A stretch of DNA of 62,526 nucleotides, from IMG/VR virus record IMGVR_UViG_3300031972_001459, positions 1 through 62,526 of that record; one strand, given 5' to 3'. Positions 10,378 to 62,407 of the stretch are shown here, one piece after another (the stretch's first letter is position 1; each line of letters opens with the position of its first letter). The notes below the pieces were generated by a model. It had not been told where the DNA came from. It saw only the letters and a program-made list of their open reading frames with translations, and searched no databases. The DNA comes from a virus. The translations under genes and the position numbers were made by a program.

Positions 10378-10770
10378 ATGTCAGCTGAAAAATTATATCC
10401 CACAGAGTTTCTTGGTTATTATGTCACTAAAACCGGCCGTGTATTTCGAGATGGTGTAAAAAAATCCGAGGAAAAATTTATGGAGATAAAACCATTTCTC
10501 CGAGGTGGTGCCGGAGTATCTAATAAGCAATATCCCTCTGTAAATATCTCGATAAAGAACTCCGAGGGTAAGACATTATATCAGAGGAAGGAGTATGTGC
10601 ATAGGATGGTCGCTGAGGCCCTGGTAGATAACCCTCACAGGTATACAGAGGTAGATCACATAGATAGAGACAAGCTCAATAATTGTGTAGACAATCTGAG
10701 GTGGTGTGATAGGAATACCAATCTCAGAGATAAACCTAGAGACATTAACGGGAGGTATTGTAAGGTATGA
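10378..10770 (+). CDS. HNH homing endonuclease (NUMOD4/HNH type)
   Basis: A 130-residue protein. The N-terminal part (EFLGYYVTKTGRVFRDGVKK) is like the NUMOD4 module of free-standing and intron-coded endonucleases. The nuclease part is YVHRMVAEALVDNP (73-86), EVDHIDRDKLNNCVDNLRWC (91-110) and NTNLRDK, a standard HNH_3 signature with the His and Asn residues in place. The ATG at 10378 is preferred over an upstream TTG because it gives the usual short start. It is transcribed from the perfect sigma70 promoter at 10197 and overlaps the next gene by four bases (ATGA). No T4-type late promoter is visible, unlike the other endonuclease genes. Confidence 0.85.
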   Translation: MSAEKLYPTEFLGYYVTKTGRVFRDGVKKSEEKFMEIKPFLRGGAGVSNKQYPSVNISIKNSEGKTLYQRKEYVHRMVAEALVDNPHRYTEVDHIDRDKLNNCVDNLRWCDRNTNLRDKPRDINGRYCKV

Positions 10771-10961
10771 GTAGTTCAGAAGTTTATCACATTTATCTAA
10801 AGGATAGTTGTATACTTCCGTGTTTAACGAAGGAGAAATTTACAACTAGTTGGGAGTGTCTCAATTTGATGGTAGGGTTGATGAAGACAGATTACGTGGT
10901 GGAAGACCTGTCGTATGAAGTAGTAAGACCACTACAATCAAATGAGGAACAATCCTATTGA
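10767..10961 (+). CDS. Small cyanophage protein, function unknown
   Basis: A 64-residue protein with VYHIYLKDSCILPCLTKEKF and a helix WECLNLMVGLMKTDY. Short proteins with this YHIYLKD opening are typical of T4-like cyanophages, often near genes 25 and 5, but the role is unknown. It is coupled to the HNH gene by an ATGA overlap, so the HNH gene may have been inserted directly in front of it and taken over its promoter. Its stop overlaps the -35 box of the next promoter. Confidence 0.6.
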   Translation: MSSSEVYHIYLKDSCILPCLTKEKFTTSWECLNLMVGLMKTDYVVEDLSYEVVRPLQSNEEQSY

Positions 10962-10986
10962 CAAGTTCTAAATATCGAAGTATAAT
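10958..10986 (+). promoter_or_regulatory. Second perfect-consensus sigma70 promoter
   Basis: TTGACA (10958-10963), 17-base spacer, TATAAT (10981-10986). The spacer contains TCTAAATA (10967-10974), a late-promoter-like variant also seen before genes 8 and 67, so the site may serve both early and late transcription. It drives the glycosyltransferase gene. Confidence 0.8.
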
Positions 10987-11015
10987 GAAAGTTGAAATGG
11001 AGTGATTTCTAACTC

Positions 11016-11798
11016 ATGGCTAAAGGATTTACAGTCAAGGCATCAACACCAAAGAAGAAAGAAGAAGGGCCTGCACCGTGGGACTATGATGCAATCAAAG
11101 AAAGAATGAGAGGAAAGGCAATTGTATTTTGTCTACCTGGAAGGGGATGTAGTTATGCATTCATGAAGAACTTTGTACAGTTATGTTTTGATCTTGTACA
11201 AAACCAGATGAGTATTCAGATTAGTCAGGATTACTCGTCTATGGTGAATTTCGCACGATGTAAGTGTCTCGGCGCCAATGTATTGAGAGGGCCTGACCAA
11301 ATTCCATGGGATGGTAAGTTACAGTATGATTATCAGTTATGGATTGACTCTGATATTATTTTTAATACTGAGAAGTTCTGGCAATTATGTGATGTGGCAT
11401 TAGATGCTGATGGAACGGAGCGTCCTATCAGCGCCGGGTGGTATTCGACTGAAGACGGTCGGACAACCTCTGTAGCACACTGGTTGGAAGAAGATGACTT
11501 CCGCAATAATGGTGGAGTAATGAATCATGAGATGGTAGATGGTATTAGTAAGCGTAAGAAGCCTTTTACTGTTGACTATACTGGTTTTGGATGGGTCATG
11601 ATTCAGAAGGGTGTCTTTGAGAATGAGGGTATGAAGTATCCATGGTTTGCTCCTAAGATGCAAGTCTTTGAAAGTGGTGCTGTTCAAGATATGTGTGGAG
11701 AGGATGTTTCGTTCTGTCTTGATGCAATTGAATCAGGATATGAGATTTGGTGTGATCCACGTATTCGTGTTGGTCATGAGAAAACCCGAGTTATCTAA
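11016..11798 (+). CDS. Putative glycosyltransferase
   Basis: A 260-residue protein with the look of a nucleotide-sugar glycosyltransferase of the GT-A type: an N-terminal strand-turn (GKAIVFCLPGRGCSYAFMKN, about 33-52), a helix, and the metal-binding DSD at 111-113 in YQLWIDSDIIF, followed by a long C-terminal part with FTVDYTGFGWVMIQKGVFE and GEDVSFCLDAIESGYEIWCD (a GED block where the catalytic base is often found). Related proteins are common in T4-like cyanophages. The acceptor could be DNA, a virion protein or a host surface sugar. The first 20 residues are basic and probably flexible. Binding site TGGAGTG precedes the ATG. Confidence 0.7.
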   Translation: MAKGFTVKASTPKKKEEGPAPWDYDAIKERMRGKAIVFCLPGRGCSYAFMKNFVQLCFDLVQNQMSIQISQDYSSMVNFARCKCLGANVLRGPDQIPWDGKLQYDYQLWIDSDIIFNTEKFWQLCDVALDADGTERPISAGWYSTEDGRTTSVAHWLEEDDFRNNGGVMNHEMVDGISKRKKPFTVDYTGFGWVMIQKGVFENEGMKYPWFAPKMQVFESGAVQDMCGEDVSFCLDAIESGYEIWCDPRIRVGHEKTRVI

Positions 11799-11804
11799 AC
11801 ACTA

Positions 11805-11960
11805 ATGGCAAATCAATTTAACGTTGATAGATCTGTAGAATTTGCTTCAAAGATGACACTTATCACTGAAACCAATAGTGATAAGTATTTGGAGCAATAT
11901 CGACAGAGTTTAAAGAACCGAGAACAATTAGAATCACTGTACAATCAAGAGAGTAATTAA
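11805..11960 (+). CDS. 51-residue helical protein, function unknown
   Basis: A short protein six bases after the previous stop: MANQFNVDRSVEFASKMTLI, then a charged helix LEQYRQSLKNREQLESLYNQ. It is probably a helical hairpin or coiled coil. It shares the transcript of the glycosyltransferase gene. No family recognised. Confidence 0.5.
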   Translation: MANQFNVDRSVEFASKMTLITETNSDKYLEQYRQSLKNREQLESLYNQESN

Positions 11961-12113: not shown

Positions 12114-12693
12114 ATATAGCACAGAATATGAATGGGTATCAACTCATTCGTATGATCTGTGGGTCTATAATAAGTTACAAGTGAGTCGGGTATTAGGATA
12201 TGAGTGTGGACCAGCTGGTCTCGCCGTACCTAAACCCGATTTTTATATTGTTCGACCATGTATTAATTTCATGGGTATGAGTCGTCATGCTCGTATTGAA
12301 TATCTTGAAGGTGATACTGAACATCTACATCCAGCTGAGTTTTGGTGTGAAGTATTTGAAGGAGAACATATATCAGTTGATTATTATAAAGGACAACAAG
12401 AACTAACTGTAAAGGGTGTGAGAGACCCCCAGGACCCTCTATACAAGTGGAAGAAGTGGTATAAGGTAGATAGAGTAATACCATTACCCAAAGTGTTTGA
12501 GGAAGTTAGTCAGAGGTATGATTGGTTAAATTGTGAATATATTGATGGTAAGTTAATTGAGATACATTTAAGAGGTAATCCTAATTTTAATTATGGTGGC
12601 GACTCAATTACTCCAGTATGGGAAGGAGATGATGTGTCAGACTACATAGAACAAAGTAACTACAAGAGATTGGGGTTTATTATAGATGGATAA
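12094..12693 (+). CDS. Conserved-type protein, weakly ATP-grasp-like
   Basis: A 199-residue protein. I choose the GTG at 12094 (AAGGA about nine bases upstream) over a longer frame from 12004, which would be read entirely in the shadow of the small basic protein gene. Blocks such as DFYIVRPCINFMGMSRHARI, FWCEVFEGEHISVDYYKG and LIEIHLRGNPNF recall the nucleotide- and metal-binding blocks of ATP-grasp enzymes, but the match is weak and the protein is short. The function is therefore open. It follows the glycosyltransferase unit and overlaps the next gene by eight bases. Confidence 0.6.
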   Translation: MVKDEDRYSTEYEWVSTHSYDLWVYNKLQVSRVLGYECGPAGLAVPKPDFYIVRPCINFMGMSRHARIEYLEGDTEHLHPAEFWCEVFEGEHISVDYYKGQQELTVKGVRDPQDPLYKWKKWYKVDRVIPLPKVFEEVSQRYDWLNCEYIDGKLIEIHLRGNPNFNYGGDSITPVWEGDDVSDYIEQSNYKRLGFIIDG

Positions 12694-15367: not shown

Positions 15368-18300
15368 ATGACAGTAGATAGAGTTAAATTTCAAGAAATC
15401 GTTGAAAGTCAACTCCCTAGGTACGTTAGGGAAGACTTTCCTCTGTTAAGCGATTTTATAAAACAGTATTATATCTCTCAGGAAATTGAAAGTGGTCCTA
15501 TTGATATTCTTAATAACATTGATCAGTACGTAAAAGTAGATCAATTATGTGATATTGTTGACTCTACTACACTTGTTGATTCATTAGATACTATTGATAC
15601 TACTATTGTTGTAAATTCTACTGAAGGATTTTCAGATAACAATGGTATTATTCAAATTGATAATGAAATTATATACTATGGAACCAAAACTTCAACTACA
15701 TTTGTAGATTGTTCTAGAGGTTTTAGTGGAGTTACAACATATATTACCTCTGGTGCACCAGATGAACTAACATTTTCTTCAACAATCGCAGATTCTCACA
15801 CTACAGGTGCGACTGTTAAGAATTTAAATATACTTTTTCTTAAGCAATTCCTCACTAAACTTAAAAGACAGGTAACACCAGGGTTTACTGATAGGAACTT
15901 TTACACAGGATTGGATAAAAGAAACTTTATAATCAATTCTGACAGTTTTTATAAGTCAAAAGGTACTGAACAATCTTACGAAATACTCTTCCGAGCACTG
16001 TATGGGGAAGATGTTGAACTTATTCGTCCATCAAAGTTCCTTTTAACACCATCTAACGCCGATTACAAGGTCACTAAAGACTTTGTTGTAGAACAACTTC
16101 AGGGTGATCCGTTAAATTTAAAGAATCTTACGATATATCAAGACTTAACTAGTGCAAGAGGGTCTGTTACTAACGTTCAACAGATACCTTATGAGAACTT
16201 TCAGTACTATCAAATCAGTATTGACTCTGGTTTTGCGAGAGATAGTGATGTAAGTGGTTCTATCTACGGACAATTTAAACCAAATCCACTCACAAAAGTC
16301 CTAAATGACGTAAGTATTGGTTCAACTATCATTGATGTTGATTCTACAATTGGATTTCCCGAGACTGGTAGTCTTAGTGTACTGGATATTGACAACAATG
16401 AGTTATCTGTCGCATATAATGGTAAGACTTTAAACCAATTTTTCAATACAAGTGGTGTTAGTGGCAAAATTGTAAAGAAAACTAATATAACTTTAGACAC
16501 ATATTCGTATGCATACGTCGGTATTGACACTACTCAGCAGATAAGAGTCAGATTTACTGCTACAGTGAAGGATTTTATCCCCAATGAACTAAATTATTAC
16601 TATAAACCACATGATACCATAGAACTGAAGTCTCTTGGTTACGAATCTCCCACCAAAAAGGCAAATAATTACGTATTAAACGTAAAAACTAACTGGGATG
16701 TCGTAGAATCTAGTGTTATTGACGCAGATGCCTTTGTTTATCAGTTTGAATTTGCAAAAGAGCACTTTTTTAGAGAAGGTTATACCGTAAGATATGAAAA
16801 TTTAGACGGAACTTACTCTATTTTTGGCACAGTTTCCAGAGTTTTCTCTTCAACGGCCATTAGAGTGACTTTTTCGCAACAAATTAACCTGAAAGGTCAG
16901 TTTGTAATTGAAAATCAGACGTTGAAGGGTGCATCTCAGGCATATCCTTACCTGAATAATTATATTGCAAACGTTCAAAACACATATTCTAAGTATAATG
17001 ACGATGTAATTATTGCATCTAACTCTATTGCAAAGTATGATGACATTGAAACTGATCCATACGACAAAAAAATAACTTTTAGTGCAAATTTAACTTCAAC
17101 AGAAAATCTCACACTACCAGTTAATCCCACGTCAAGACCTGATCATGGTTTTTATACTGGTGATGCAGTATATTTTACCTCTGCAGGAAATGGTTTTGAG
17201 GGTATGCCATCAGCGTCTTACTTTGTTTTCAGAGTTGATGAGGAGACTATTAAACTTTCTAGAAGTAAGGCTGACTTGTCTAGAAAACTTTACATCACAT
17301 TTAATGGTTCTGTAGTTAATGCATCTCTTGCATATCTTGATTTCTACGATAAAGAGATAGAACCTCAGGGTTTGTATAGACAAATTCTAAAACCAATTAA
17401 TGACAATAAGTCTTATATCACTAGAGCTGGTTATACTGGCATATTCGTTAATGGTGTTGAACTATTAAACTACAAAGCACAAAGTAGTGTTTATTATGGA
17501 AAACTTAATAGTTTGTCCATGACAACTGGTGGTGGTGGGTATGACATCATCAATCCTCCAGTATTGTCAATTAAGGATGAAGTTGGTTATGGTGCTACTG
17601 GATTCTGTAACGTAAAGGGGTCACTCATAAGACTCGATGTTACAGATTCTGGTCTTGGTTATTATGAACCTCCCACAATCTCTATTAGTGGTGGTAATGG
17701 ATCTGGGGCTAAGGCAGAACCAAGAATGGTTTCTATTAAACATGAAAATTCATTCTTTGCAGATTTCCCGAGTCAAGTTGATCTAATCAATAACACAATT
17801 ATCTTCCCAAGTGATCATAAATTTTTGGATGGTGAAGAGATAATTTACGAACCAAGAGGAACAGAAGTCGTTTCTGGTCTTACAACAGGTGGTTCATACT
17901 ATGTTAGAGTTACTGGTCAAAAAAGTATGAAACTTCATACTAATAAAGGTGATGCCTTTGTTGGTATTAATACAGTCAATATTACAAAGTATGGATCTGG
18001 TACACAATACTTTGTTGCATCAGATCTAAAACTGGTTGTATCTTCGGTTGTAGTGACTGATCCGGGACAAAACTACGAGAACAAGAGAAGAACAATTCCT
18101 GCTATAGGTGTCAACACAGTATCTGATCAGGTAGAGATTGCAAATCATGGATATGAATCAAAAGAAATTGTAAGATATACGAAACCAGATGTTGGAGATA
18201 GTATTCAGGGACTATCTGAAAATACTGATTATTATGTTGTCAAGGTTAATGATAATGCATTCTCGTTGACAAATGTTGGAATTGATTCAGTTGCAACAGA

Positions 18301-42489: not shown

Positions 42490-42948
42490 ATGTTGAAGAG
42501 TATTGAGATTCTGGATAAGTTGACTCCAGATGAAGAGATTGATAGTGATGGAAAGGATAGTGAATTTAATAGACTGAGAAGAGAAATAGACCAACTGCGT
42601 AAGATGGTCTATGAAAGTGTCAGACATACCTCTACTATTGGAGGTGGTGGTGCTGGATTCATCAAGGATCTTGATGATGTTAATATTGCTGGTCTTCAGA
42701 ATGGTTACATACTGTCATATAATTCCACTACTCAAAAGTGGGACGTAATTGAAAATCAAAGTACTGGTGGGGTAACAAATGGTATTAGAGTTCTTACTAC
42801 TGTAGAGAGAGATGCGTTAACACCAGTAGCAGGAGCTTTGATTTACAATTCTACTACTGATGTTGTTCAAGTTTATACTGGAACTGCCTGGGTAGGTGTT
42901 GCTCCTGATGAAGATGCAATTATTGATGGTTCTGTTACTATTACATAG
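42490..42948 (+). CDS. Virion protein, second half of a split gene
   Basis: A 152-residue frame in phase with the preceding gene, beginning with a charged coiled coil (FNRLRREIDQLRKMVYES), a Gly-rich turn (TIGGGGAGF), then strand-rich LDDVNIAGLQNGYILSYNST and TQKWDVIENQ, of a type common in marine phage fibre-like proteins, and TVERDALTPVAGALIYNSTT with YTGTAWVGV, a short module often found in phage tail fibres. It lacks a clear ribosome binding site of its own, so it is probably made by read-through or restart, or it is a pseudogene half. Confidence 0.65.
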   Translation: MLKSIEILDKLTPDEEIDSDGKDSEFNRLRREIDQLRKMVYESVRHTSTIGGGGAGFIKDLDDVNIAGLQNGYILSYNSTTQKWDVIENQSTGGVTNGIRVLTTVERDALTPVAGALIYNSTTDVVQVYTGTAWVGVAPDEDAIIDGSVTIT

Positions 42949-42949
42949 T

Positions 42950-42957
42950 AATAAATA
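42950..42957 (+). promoter_or_regulatory. Late promoter (AATAAATA)
   Basis: A late-box variant following the previous stop, 25 bases before the next start codon. Confidence 0.6.
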
Positions 42958-42982
42958 ATAAAACAGAACTCTTTCTATTGAT

Positions 42983-44362
42983 ATGCAGGAAGGTAATCTA
43001 CATAAGTGGTTTAAGGGATCCAAGTCTAAAGACGGTAAGTCTGGTTGGGTCAATGTGGTCACTGGTGGTACATGTGCTAGCGATAAACCAGGTGAAGGAA
43101 CACCCAAGTGTGTATCTTCTTCAAAGAGGGCTAGTATGACTCCTGCCGAAAGAAAGTCTGCACAAAGCAGAAAGAAGAAAGCAGACCCAAACCAACAATC
43201 AAAGTCTGGTGCTGCAAAACCAACTTACGTTTCAACTGACAAACCAAAGAAAAAAATGAAAGAAGAAATGGAAATCAATGAAGCGGACAAGAAGGGTAAA
43301 GGTAGTGGTAAGAAGGATGCATGTTACCATAAGGTAAAGGCATCTGCTTCTGTATGGCCTTCTGCTTATGCTTCTGGTCGTTTGGTTCAGTGCCGTAAGA
43401 AAGGTGCTGCCAATTACGGTAAGTCAAAGAAGAACGAAGAGTTTATGGCTCTTCCAGAGTTGACTGACCTTCAAATCAGGTGTATGGAAGCAGCAGGTAT
43501 TGAAGTAGAAGTTCTTGATGAGAAGTGTTGGGTTGGGTATACCCAGAAGGGTATGAAGAAGAAGGGTAAAAAAGTAGTTCCCAATTGTGTTCCTGTTGGT
43601 GAAGGATATGCTCCTGGTGATGTCGATCAGAAGGTTGGTGCTGTAACTCCTATTCCCAAAGATGAGAGAGAAGCAGCAAAACAAAGATTACTTGCCAAGA
43701 CAAAGGCAAAACGTGAAAAGATGAAGGAAGAAAATAATATTGAAGAGGCTACAAGAATTCCTGCACAGAGTGGTAACTGTTACTTGGTAGGATTTACCTG
43801 GAGAGGTAAATACATGATGATGAAATTATTCTTCCCAGATGTAAAGAGACCTTCTAGAACTGAAGTTCAAGATACACTTGAGAAAGTATATCCAGGTTCT
43901 TATGTTCAAAGGTTTGACCTTACCCAATATAACCCTAACGAACCAATGTTGAATGTTGGTGTTCGTGAAGAACATGATAAATCTAATAAGAGTTGTTCTA
44001 AAGGTGAATACTATTGTAAGGACTCTAAAAAATGTAAGCCAATACCTAAAGGTCATCATGTAATGCCAAATGGTGATTTGATGAAAGATGAGGATCATGA
44101 TGAAGGTGGTGATATGAGTGAAGGTGCTGCTTGGACTCGCAAAGAAGGTCAGAACCCTGAAGGTGGTTTAAATGAGAAAGGAAGAAAGTCTGCGAAAGCA
44201 GATGGACATAACTTAAAACGACCATCTAAAGTGAAGGGTAATAAGAGAAGAGCATCATTCTGTGCTAGAATGAGTGGAATGAAAAAGAAACTCACCTCCA
44301 AGAAAACTGCTAATGATCCTGATTCCAGGATCAACAAATCACTTAGAGCGTGGGACTGCTGA
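42983..44362 (+). CDS. Basic multi-domain protein (DUF5872- and DUF6321-like)
   Basis: A 459-residue, Lys-rich protein built from short Cys-containing modules joined by charged linkers. Residues 5-45 (HKWFKGSKSKDGKSGWVN, CASDKPGEGTPKC) are DUF5872-like. Residues 112-148 contain CYHKVKASASVWPSAYASGR and CRKKGAANYG. Residues 178-206 carry another Cys pair (KCWVGYTQKGMKKKG...NC). Residues 383-459 (AAWTRKEGQNPEGGLNEKGR, ASFCARMSGMKKKLTSKKTA) are DUF6321-like. It lies between the split virion gene and the large terminase gene. The basic modules and linkers suggest a DNA-binding protein carried in the head, perhaps cut by the prohead protease; this is an inference. Confidence 0.75.
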   Translation: MQEGNLHKWFKGSKSKDGKSGWVNVVTGGTCASDKPGEGTPKCVSSSKRASMTPAERKSAQSRKKKADPNQQSKSGAAKPTYVSTDKPKKKMKEEMEINEADKKGKGSGKKDACYHKVKASASVWPSAYASGRLVQCRKKGAANYGKSKKNEEFMALPELTDLQIRCMEAAGIEVEVLDEKCWVGYTQKGMKKKGKKVVPNCVPVGEGYAPGDVDQKVGAVTPIPKDEREAAKQRLLAKTKAKREKMKEENNIEEATRIPAQSGNCYLVGFTWRGKYMMMKLFFPDVKRPSRTEVQDTLEKVYPGSYVQRFDLTQYNPNEPMLNVGVREEHDKSNKSCSKGEYYCKDSKKCKPIPKGHHVMPNGDLMKDEDHDEGGDMSEGAAWTRKEGQNPEGGLNEKGRKSAKADGHNLKRPSKVKGNKRRASFCARMSGMKKKLTSKKTANDPDSRINKSLRAWDC

Positions 44363-55209: not shown

Positions 55210-55232
55210 GCTCTAGCCTCATTGATTATCTG

Positions 55233-55256
55233 GAGACCCGAAAGGGTCTCTTTTTT
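55233..55256 (+). terminator. Intrinsic terminator after gene 23
   Basis: GAGACCC (55233-55239), GAAA loop, GGGTCTC (55244-55250), then six T. A perfect 7-bp stem with a stable tetraloop. It closes the capsid transcript and separates it from the GIY-YIG gene. Confidence 0.92.
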
Positions 55257-55297: not shown

Positions 55298-55789
55298 ATG
55301 GCATATATTTACCAGGCCGTTAATAAAAAGAATGGTAAATCCTATATTGGTCGCACCACTTATAAACGTTTGAGGCAGAGAGAAAGCACACACTGGTGGT
55401 ATGCAAATAATAAAGGATATAACCACCCTTTCCCTAATGCACTTATCAAGTATGGTAGAGATATGTTTGAGTGGAGTATATTAGAGGAGTGTAGTAAAGA
55501 AGACCAGGGTACTAGGGAGGTATATTGGATTGATAAAATTAAACCAGAGTATAACGCAACCCTTGGTGGAGACGGTGGTAGTTATGGTATCCCCTGTTCG
55601 GAAGAGAAGAAAAAAATCCTATCAAAAGCTGTGGCCAAATCAGTAATAAACCTTGATACCGAAGAAGTATTTGATAGTTTGCAGGATGCCGCAAATTTTG
55701 CGGGTGTGTCTGTCAGTATGATAAGTATGGCATGTAGTGGTAAAAGGAAGACAGCTGGTAGTTATAGATGGAAACTGATTGATAAATAG
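55298..55789 (+). CDS. GIY-YIG homing endonuclease
   Basis: A 163-residue protein. The nuclease part has AYIYQAVNKKNGKSYIG (2-18, the GIY and YIG halves), a conserved Arg/His stretch (RQRESTHWW), KYGRDMFEWSILEE and GTREVYWIDKIKPEYNATLG with the catalytic Glu near residue 74. A C-terminal NUMOD1-like helix-turn-helix follows (SLQDAANFAGVSVSMISMAC) and SYRWKLID. It is a free-standing homing endonuclease between gene 23 and the following small gene, with its own late promoter. Confidence 0.88.
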   Translation: MAYIYQAVNKKNGKSYIGRTTYKRLRQRESTHWWYANNKGYNHPFPNALIKYGRDMFEWSILEECSKEDQGTREVYWIDKIKPEYNATLGGDGGSYGIPCSEEKKKILSKAVAKSVINLDTEEVFDSLQDAANFAGVSVSMISMACSGKRKTAGSYRWKLIDK

Positions 55790-55811
55790 TAAAAAGTATC
55801 TTTGATTGACT

Positions 55812-59678: not shown

Positions 59679-59722
59679 CTATAATACTTGACATTATAAA
59701 TAAATAATGGTATTATAATAAT
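59675..59722 (+). promoter_or_regulatory. Hairpin enclosing the late promoter of endonuclease gene 1
   Basis: ATTACTATAATAC (59675-59687) pairs with GTATTATAATAAT (59710-59722) in 12 of 13 positions. The 22-base loop contains TATAAATA. The 3' arm ends three bases before the ATG. Read-through RNA from gene 55 would hide the start; RNA begun at the late promoter (about 59708) lacks the 5' arm. Confidence 0.75.
59695..59702 (+). promoter_or_regulatory. Late promoter TATAAATA of endonuclease gene 1
   Basis: A perfect late box in the loop of the hairpin described at 59675-59722, with an expected leader of about 18 bases. A TTGACA (59688-59693) followed at 17 bases by TATTAT also lies here, but it would give almost no leader. 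Confidence 0.75.
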
Positions 59723-59725
59723 AAA

Positions 59726-60208
59726 ATGACTAAAACATTTATTGGTAAACCTTGTAGAAGTTGCGGTGGGACTGAAAGATATCTTAGTGGTAACAAAGGA
59801 TGTGTTGCTTGTGCTAAGGAGAACTCTAAACGCCGTGTTACTGCATCAGCTGAATGGAAGAGAGAAAATAAAGATAGGGTAAATAAAAACAATAGGCTTA
59901 GATATAACAGTCTAAGCCCAGAAGAAAAGAAAGAAAGAATGAGGCGTCAACAAATGGCCCTCTATGGATTGACCTTAGAAGATTACGACAAGATGTTACA
60001 GGAGCAAGGTGGTGTTTGTGCCTGTTGTGGAAAGCCTGAACTAAAAGAAGGTCGCACAAATCTATGCGTTGACCACAATCACGAAACAGGGAAAGTTCGA
60101 GCGTTACTGTGCGATTATTGCAACAGGGGTATCGGATATTTTACTGACAATATTGACAAGCTACGCAATTGTGTGTTATACTTAGAGAAATACGATGGAG
60201 GTGGTTGA
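59726..60208 (+). CDS. Endonuclease VII-type homing nuclease at gene 55
   Basis: A 160-residue protein. It has an N-terminal zinc site (CRSCG, CVACA), a basic helical middle and a C-terminal HNH/endonuclease VII domain: CACCGKP (zinc Cys near 98-101), NLCVDHNHETGKVRALLCDY (113-132) and CNRGIGYFTDNIDKLRNCVL. It is not the T4 gene 49 itself by place; free-standing copies of this domain spread by homing. It lies exactly at the gene 55 / next gene junction, flanked by the repeats at 59662 and 60198. Its last codons (GGG, stop) are read from the right repeat, which also holds the binding site of the next gene. Confidence 0.85.
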   Translation: MTKTFIGKPCRSCGGTERYLSGNKGCVACAKENSKRRVTASAEWKRENKDRVNKNNRLRYNSLSPEEKKERMRRQQMALYGLTLEDYDKMLQEQGGVCACCGKPELKEGRTNLCVDHNHETGKVRALLCDYCNRGIGYFTDNIDKLRNCVLYLEKYDGGG

Positions 60209-61622: not shown

Positions 61623-61894
61623 TGCATATTATCACAGTCGTAGGTAAAGAGAAGGAAGGAGCATATTCTGTTATCGATGAAGATGGAGAACAGGTTCTTT
61701 ATATTTTCATGGAAGAGGATGACGCCACAAGATACTCTATGCAATTAGAAGAACTTGGTTATCCTGAGATGACTGTGTTAGAAGTAGATGATGAAGTGAT
61801 GATAAAAACTTGTGAAATGCACGATCACCGTTATACTGTGATCACCCCCAATGACATTGTAATTCCACCTGACGAAGAATATGATAACCTTTGA
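61622..61894 (+). CDS. DUF3110-like protein between genes 47 and 46
   Basis: A 90-residue protein: HIITVVGKEKEGAYSVIDED, EQVLYIFMEEDDATRYSMQL, EELGYPEMTVLEVDDEVMIK and the end NDIVIPPDEEYDNL. The FxEEDDATRYxxxLE block is the core of DUF3110, a family mainly of cyanobacteria, so an origin in the host lineage is likely. It is probably translated with gp47 (one-base overlap, TGATG). Its last codons and stop (TATGATAACCTTTGA) form the left junction repeat of the next endonuclease gene. Confidence 0.75.
   Translation: MHIITVVGKEKEGAYSVIDEDGEQVLYIFMEEDDATRYSMQLEELGYPEMTVLEVDDEVMIKTCEMHDHRYTVITPNDIVIPPDEEYDNL
61881..61892 (+). repeat. Left junction repeat of endonuclease insertion at gene 46
   Basis: ATGATAACCTTT, identical to 62394-62405. 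In the DUF3110 frame it encodes the last residues DNL; in the right copy the same bases are the first four codons of gene 46. Confidence 0.88.
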
Positions 61895-61908
61895 CGATTG
61901 ACGACTAA

Positions 61909-61951
61909 CATAGTAGAATAACTAAATAGTATTAGTAATCGTCCTACTATG
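61909..61951 (+). promoter_or_regulatory. Hairpin enclosing the late promoter of endonuclease gene 2
   Basis: CATAGTAG (61909-61916) pairs perfectly with CTACTATG (61944-61951), whose last three bases are the start codon. Inside, ACTAA (61921-61925) can pair with TTAGT (61932-61936). The late-type box ACTAAATA (61921-61928) lies in the inner part. A transcript begun near 61934 lacks the 5' arm and frees the ATG. Confidence 0.75.
61921..61928 (+). promoter_or_regulatory. Late promoter variant (ACTAAATA) of endonuclease gene 2
   Basis: The same variant is found before the head-region gene at 51421. Expected leader about 15 bases. Confidence 0.55.
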
Positions 61952-62407
61952 AAAGTCTGTAGAGAATGTGGTGCCAGTAAACCCTTAGAAGAATACCATA
62001 CCTCTAGGAACGGTAAAGGCGGAAAAGTATACAGAAAAAATATCTGTAAGGTATGTCAAAATGAATATGCCAGATCGAAATACCATAATCTGTCTGAGGA
62101 AGTAAAGAAAGAACGGAGAAGGAAAAACCCCTGTAACACCCCCGAATGGCATAAAGAGTATAAGTTACGAACACAGTTCGGGTTGACAACCGAAGAATAT
62201 CGTGGTATGATTACCATACAAAACAATCGGTGCATTACTTGTGGAACAGAGTTTGACGAACAAATAAAACCACAGGTAGACCATTGTCACAACACAGGTA
62301 AGGTAAGGGGGCTCCTTTGCAGACCGTGTAATACTAGTTTAGGTTTACTAAAAGAAAACCCCGAAACATTGAAGAACTTGATTACTTACCTACATGATAA
62401 CCTTTAA
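61949..62407 (+). CDS. Endonuclease VII-type homing nuclease at gene 46
   Basis: A 152-residue protein. It has an N-terminal zinc ribbon (VCRECGASKPLEEYHT, ICKVCQNEY), a basic helical linker (EEVKKERRRK) and a C-terminal endonuclease VII/HNH domain: RCITCGTEF (zinc Cys 95 and 98), QVDHCHNTGKVRGLLCRPCN (109-128) and TSLGLLKENPETLKNLITYL. It separates the DUF3110 gene from gene 46 and is flanked by a perfect 12-bp direct repeat. Its final DNL codons copy the end of the DUF3110 protein and overlap the gene 46 start. Confidence 0.87.
   Translation: MKVCRECGASKPLEEYHTSRNGKGGKVYRKNICKVCQNEYARSKYHNLSEEVKKERRRKNPCNTPEWHKEYKLRTQFGLTTEEYRGMITIQNNRCITCGTEFDEQIKPQVDHCHNTGKVRGLLCRPCNTSLGLLKENPETLKNLITYLHDNL
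62394..62405 (+). repeat. Right junction repeat of endonuclease insertion at gene 46
   Basis: ATGATAACCTTT, the right copy of the repeat at 61881-61892. It holds the gene 46 start codon and the last coding bases of the endonuclease gene. Confidence 0.88.

Follow-up and report, generated by a model that had tools for sequence, protein, structure and literature searches.

Late promoters inside predicted start-masking hairpins at presumed homing endonuclease genes of marine cyanophages

The endonuclease gene that directly precedes gene 46 in the viral DNA analyzed here (the whole 62,526-nucleotide stretch of IMG/VR record IMGVR_UViG_3300031972_001459, hereafter the window) is very probably a mobile gene of the F-CphI type that was inserted together with a hairpin masking its own start codon, and this masking would be relieved by a late promoter internal to the hairpin. 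The reading draws on sequence comparison, which shows a hairpin enclosing a late-type box, an insertion that carries its own leader, relatives at the same site, covariation between the hairpin arms, enrichment of the device at endonuclease genes, and swaps of catalytic domains. The features of the two endonuclease VII-like loci of the window described below are all on the plus strand.

The open reading frame (ORF) at 61949–62407 encodes a protein of 152 aa that matches PF02945 (E=8.5e-24), and the truncated gene 46 ORF that follows it shows the Walker A motif GANGAGKST. The initial annotation had named this an endonuclease VII gene next to gene 46, which is borne out for both domain family and position, but the product resembles F-CphI and not the gp49 resolvase. 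F-CphI of cyanophage S-PM2 is an experimentally proven homing endonuclease of the DHHRN family (PMC6083498), and it aligns with residues 2–148 of the window protein, nearly its full length, at 34% identity. The catalytic residues (D111, H112, H114, R120, and N128) are retained, zinc cysteines are present at positions 95, 98, 124, and 127 as CX2C pairs, and the DHxH...R...N motif lies in the C-terminal part of the protein (residues 72–149 of 152). The alignment with T4 gp49 is limited to residues 79–148 of the window protein and 7–95 of gp49. Orthology to gene 49, and with it an identity as the gp49 Holliday-junction resolvase, was rejected, as the match is in the motif only and this motif is N-terminal in gp49 and C-terminal here. 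Because F-CphI matches over the full length and gp49 does not, and because of the C-terminal position of the motif, we regard "recombination endonuclease VII" as a misleading label and prefer "presumed homing endonuclease" for this endonuclease VII-like (DHHRN/F-CphI-type) protein.

The start codon of this gene (ATG, 61949–61951) is the end of the 3′ arm of the hairpin. As previously claimed, CATAGTAG at 61909–61916 is the perfect complement of CTACTATG at 61944–61951, and a GACT/AGTC pairing across a 2x2 internal loop lengthens the stem to 14 nt (86% paired), with a 5′ arm of GACT-AA-CATAGTAG at 61903–61916 and a 3′ arm of CTACTATG-AA-AGTC at 61944–61957. A late-type box, CTAAATA (61922–61928), is located between the arms and overlaps an inner stem formed by ACTAA (61921–61925) and TTAGT (61932–61936), which also agrees with the initial annotation. 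In a longer RNA, folding predicts a competing stem between an alternative 5′ arm, GACGATT (61893–61899), and AATCGTC (61937–61943); this stem rules out the main one and leaves the start region masked as well. The predicted cost of opening the start region is 11.6 kcal/mol in the read-through RNA and 3.6 kcal/mol in the late RNA.

Together with the preceding A, the box (A-CTAAATA, 61921–61928) would span positions −13 to −6 in the numbering of T4 late promoters (PMC2988020). Its sequence, ACTAAATA, differs from the late-promoter consensus of S-PM2, NATAAATA (PMC2984593), and matches the Aeh1-type variant of the T4 late box, which has a/gC at −13/−12 (PMC2988020); the same box is found in the same place in the leaders of the relatives L149/L208 and L371. 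Because the T4 numbering is applied to this box, the late transcript is predicted to start at about 61934, downstream of the entire 5′ arm, and would carry a 15-nt leader (61934–61948) with none of that arm and with no clear Shine–Dalgarno sequence. For this candidate late promoter, our literature search found no cyanophage late-transcript map giving start sites. Sigma-70-like sites overlapping the leaders of both endonuclease VII-like genes of the window (61891–61919 and 59688–59716) were discarded, as shuffled sequences contain equally many.

Folding energy alone puts the gene 46-side hairpin little above chance. The 51-nt hairpin has a minimum free energy of −9.7 kcal/mol, with a z-score against shuffles of −2.5 that falls to between −1.0 and −1.4 for wider stretches, and such z-scores were dropped as the only proof of the hairpin because they are too weak. 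Shuffling only the 5′ side of this leader gave p=0.055, in a per-leader test that has low power in AT-rich leaders. These near-shuffled values are what would be expected of a functionless chance product of an AT-rich leader. We nonetheless judge that explanation very improbable, since compensatory changes are found in two sequence-unrelated leader families, masking is enriched relative to other late-box genes, and each of the window's two endonuclease VII genes has the device. ORF starts in the window have 19 perfect arms of at least 7 bp, four of which enclose a late box, two at likely spurious TTG or GTG starts and two at these endonuclease VII genes.

The covariation comes from relatives at the same site. 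Endonuclease VII relatives (L149/L206–L208, L205, and L209–L214) occupy the same junction between the DUF3110 gene and gene 46 wherever flanks were examined and run into gene 46, most of them with a 14-bp overlap; the close relatives L368–L372 were added to this gene 46-type set later. In these leaders the box lies between arms of varying sequence, for example AGTAGAAAAACT/AGTTTTTCTACT in L149 and AGTGGAATAACT/AGTTATTCCACT in L371. Across 11 aligned leaders, 84% of the cells are paired, and six pairs (14 cells) have changed on both sides. The covariation score is 0.287, compared with 0.159 for shuffled alignments (0 of 500 reach the native score) and at most 0.135 for slid versions. When arms were swapped among 12 leaders, the energy went from −11.1 kcal/mol (native) to −7.5 kcal/mol, a mean cost of 3.6 kcal/mol (p=5e-5). 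These data argue for a hairpin structure conserved with compensatory changes, and given this covariation we take the hairpin to be clearly beyond chance.

The variation of the arms also bears on a reading in which the inverted repeat acts at the DNA level: the endonuclease would bind it as an operator and repress its own late promoter in the manner of I-TevI, and RNA pairing would be incidental. The repeat surrounds the box, and I-TevI, and probably I-TevII and I-TevIII, bind operators that overlap their late promoters (PMC2988022). An operator is nevertheless very unlikely here, as the arm sequences vary among relatives while pairing is kept, and the 3′ arm keeps a constant position with respect to the ATG whereas the 5′ arm shifts relative to the box in the HNH leaders described below.

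The relative L138, whose flanks are ~92% identical on both sides, does not have the gene 46-side endonuclease. In L138, positions 17363–17374 correspond to both 61892 and 62394 of the window, a direct junction that represents the empty site. The insertion of 513 bp starts after ATGATAACCTTT (61881–61892), a 12-bp sequence with which the DUF3110 gene ends and which L138 has in a single copy, and it ends with the second copy of this direct repeat (62394–62405), which bears the start codon of gene 46; there, 14 bp are common to gene 46 and the endonuclease ORF. Because the leader is inside the insertion along with the ORF, the promoter, hairpin, and ORF would move together. The junction is spanned in 124 related records, which were collected via genes 47, 55, and the GIY-YIG gene and not via endonuclease VII (a few overlap); 122 are empty, one is filled (L149), and one has a 94-bp spacer. 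The L149 insertion at this junction is independent and has a perfect 18-bp direct repeat, ATGATTCTATTTCAAAAA, at 11776–11793 and 12296–12313. This presence and absence at one site in close relatives indicates that the gene is mobile.

The same records weigh on the view that the late promoter mainly serves late expression of gene 46, in which case the endonuclease would simply be passed through and the hairpin would affect RNA processing or stability. A late promoter is indeed newly placed 5′ of gene 46, whose start lies within the endonuclease gene. Such a role is still distinctly unlikely, in that 122 of the 124 relatives do without the promoter-bearing insertion and the hairpin sits on the endonuclease start and not on that of gene 46.

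Under the masking reading that we favor, a free-standing homing endonuclease gene of the F-CphI (DHHRN) type would have been inserted with its leader between the overlapping DUF3110 and gp46 genes. RNA reading through from upstream promoters would carry both arms, so that the start codon would be paired and the endonuclease would not be made early. Upon gp55-dependent late transcription, the promoter in the loop would start RNA at about 61934, 3′ of the 5′ arm; this late RNA could not form the hairpin, and the endonuclease would be translated from the short leader. Early read-through into gene 46 would stay uninterrupted, unlike with a terminator. DNA cleavage and homing by the gene 46-side endonuclease, like its early repression and its late start and translation, are what we infer from these features.

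A second device is found at the gene 55|gene 47 junction of the window, where TATAATAC/GTATTATA around TATAAATAAATA (59680–59717) makes up the leader of a second endonuclease VII-like ORF (59726–60208, 160 aa; PF02945, 2.1e-22), with a predicted difference in opening cost of 6.4 kcal/mol. This gene is likewise an insertion missing from L138, and the repeat GAGGTGGTTGA is present at its borders. Gene 55|gene 47 junctions also harbor an HNH endonuclease (phrog_1035/phrog_333; weak PF01844), whose leaders first surfaced in an unbiased ranking of late-box genes. In leaders of this type, such as TGCTCCGTAGTGT-ATAAATA-n-ACACTACGGAGCA-ATATG, a GGAG is buried in the 3′ arm and its CTCC partner is in the 5′ arm, upstream of the box. 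Swapping arms across all HNH classes changed the energy from −19.0 kcal/mol (native) to −15.5 kcal/mol (p=5e-5), a stronger test than the class I alignment alone, in which covariation is weak because most rows have one arm pair in common. An excess of G-U over A-C (35 vs 17 in HNH leaders) has the direction expected of RNA pairing and was set aside as proof, being biased by the folding model.

Several genes (L353:3001, L357:2421, L362:3001, L363:3001, and L365:3001) are chimeras that join the leader and N-terminal 76 residues of the HNH type to an endonuclease VII catalytic domain, a swap of catalytic domains under one common leader at gene 55|47. We give slightly less than an even chance to the broader idea that, in cyanophages, the masking leader and the N-terminal zinc-finger-like domain form one exchangeable unit of control and targeting to which HNH and endonuclease VII catalytic domains are attached interchangeably; if true, the mobile element would be defined by its leader no less than by its nuclease. 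The initial annotation had offered convergent selection or a portable control module. Portability fits the gene 55|47 junction, where the leader and N-terminal domain are common to HNH genes and chimeras, and the gene 46 version, being sequence-unrelated, would be convergent or very old.

That annotation had also asked whether such hairpins are just as frequent at other late promoters. We surveyed 353 non-redundant late-box leaders and defined masking as a predicted opening cost at least 4 kcal/mol higher in the read-through RNA than in the late RNA. Masking was found in 13 of 21 endonuclease VII-like leaders (Fisher p=3e-7) and 18 of 20 HNH leaders (p=1e-13), p-values that overstate independence because homology searches supplied the HNH leaders and many of the endonuclease VII ones, which are kin to each other. 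Pooled, these amount to 31 of 41 masked leaders vs 21 of 197 other late-box leaders (uvsW excluded), so equal frequency does not hold for these two families; GIY-YIG leaders, at 2 of 17, show no enrichment over background. The predicted change was small (0.4–1.7 kcal/mol) in 5 of the 21 endonuclease VII leaders (L211, L213, L019, L369, and F-CphI). An earlier, smaller survey of 12 endonuclease VII leaders gave enrichment at p=0.003–0.014 over 247 others, a few of which later turned out to be HNH endonuclease genes. Because uvsW leaders are masked in 51 of 98 cases, the device is not endonuclease-specific. Within this group (L338:452, L076:710, L300:459, and ~95 further uvsW leaders), many have a late box whose 3′ flank pairs with the start region, a layout that recalls the T4 gene 49 leader. 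Portal protein genes (L154:924, L141:4119, and L201:713) show strong predicted masking via a stem beside the late box in 6 of 11 leaders. At 42929–42969 of the window, GTTCTGTT and AACAGAAC form a hairpin whose loop contains AATAAATA, 14 nt 5′ of ORF 42983–44362 (459 aa, DUF6321); this may be an instance of the device at a gene that is not a nuclease.

One device at three unrelated or only distantly related nuclease loci had been proposed for the window. Two of the loci, the endonuclease VII genes, do have it, and they are homologous (33% identity); the sharing of the device by endonuclease VII-like and HNH genes upholds the wider claim. The GIY-YIG gene (55298–55789) was rejected as the third locus, since the stem in its leader is short and imperfect, this leader and those of its homologs L139–L141 are little masked, and an intrinsic terminator (55232–55251, GGAGACCCGAAAGGGTCTCT-TTTTT) lies just 5′ of its TATAAATA box. 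Just after this gene, at window 55806–55810, L138 has ~1.3 kb more (10509–11828). F-CphI of S-PM2 (L285:2974) has the same terminator-then-late-box layout. Strong masking is seen in 5 of 43 terminator-flagged leaders vs 100 of 310 unflagged ones. From these few cases we hypothesize that read-through is stopped by nuclease genes located at the borders of operons, whereas nuclease genes inside essential operons hide their start, because a terminator there would keep transcription from reaching gene 46 or 47.

Our analysis would add mobile endonucleases of marine cyanophages to the genes under a control mechanism worked out in T4, on comparative evidence from two-site covariation, exact empty sites, and domain swaps. 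It suggests a simple rule, that selfish genes within essential operons conceal the start codon instead of ending the transcript, and it provides a clean set of cases for testing how mobile elements of this kind remain silent until late infection. No earlier report of the masking-hairpin device in cyanophages was found in the literature searched, which omits most subscription journals.

By its sequence features, the window case is a T4-type late-promoter/start-masking hairpin and not a new principle. RNA structures sequester the start or ribosome-binding site (RBS) of T4 e, soc, 49, and I-TevI, and in e and I-TevI, a late promoter yields RNA without the 5′ part of the structure; the late-promoter/hairpin device has been demonstrated in Aeh1 mobE, with segB, I-TevII, and I-TevIII as further implicated cases (PMC3014915; PMC2988022). 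T4 I-TevI, I-TevII, I-TevIII, and segB and Aeh1 mobE resemble the window case in being homing genes in an early or middle unit, with a read-through hairpin that hides the RBS and a late promoter in the hairpin that gives late RNA without the 5′ arm. In the T4 I-TevII leader, CCTCGTATAAATATGAATACGAGG, the late box lies between CCTCGTAT and ATACGAGG, the same position as in the window. Unlike this group, the genes in cyanophages stand free at gene 46/47 junctions and are of the endonuclease VII or HNH type, and the window case masks the AUG without a clear Shine–Dalgarno sequence. T4 e and soc also have a start-masking hairpin, removed in e by an internal late promoter, but those genes are not mobile. 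T4 gene 49 has a related catalytic motif and a start-site hairpin that is inhibitory (PMC3014915), with the late box ATAAATA within the 5′ arm of its leader; gp49, however, is a resolvase with an N-terminal motif, and the loci are not syntenic. F-CphI shares the domain order and catalytic residues of the window protein, yet its gene adjoins psbA and has its late box after an intrinsic terminator, without a start-masking hairpin.
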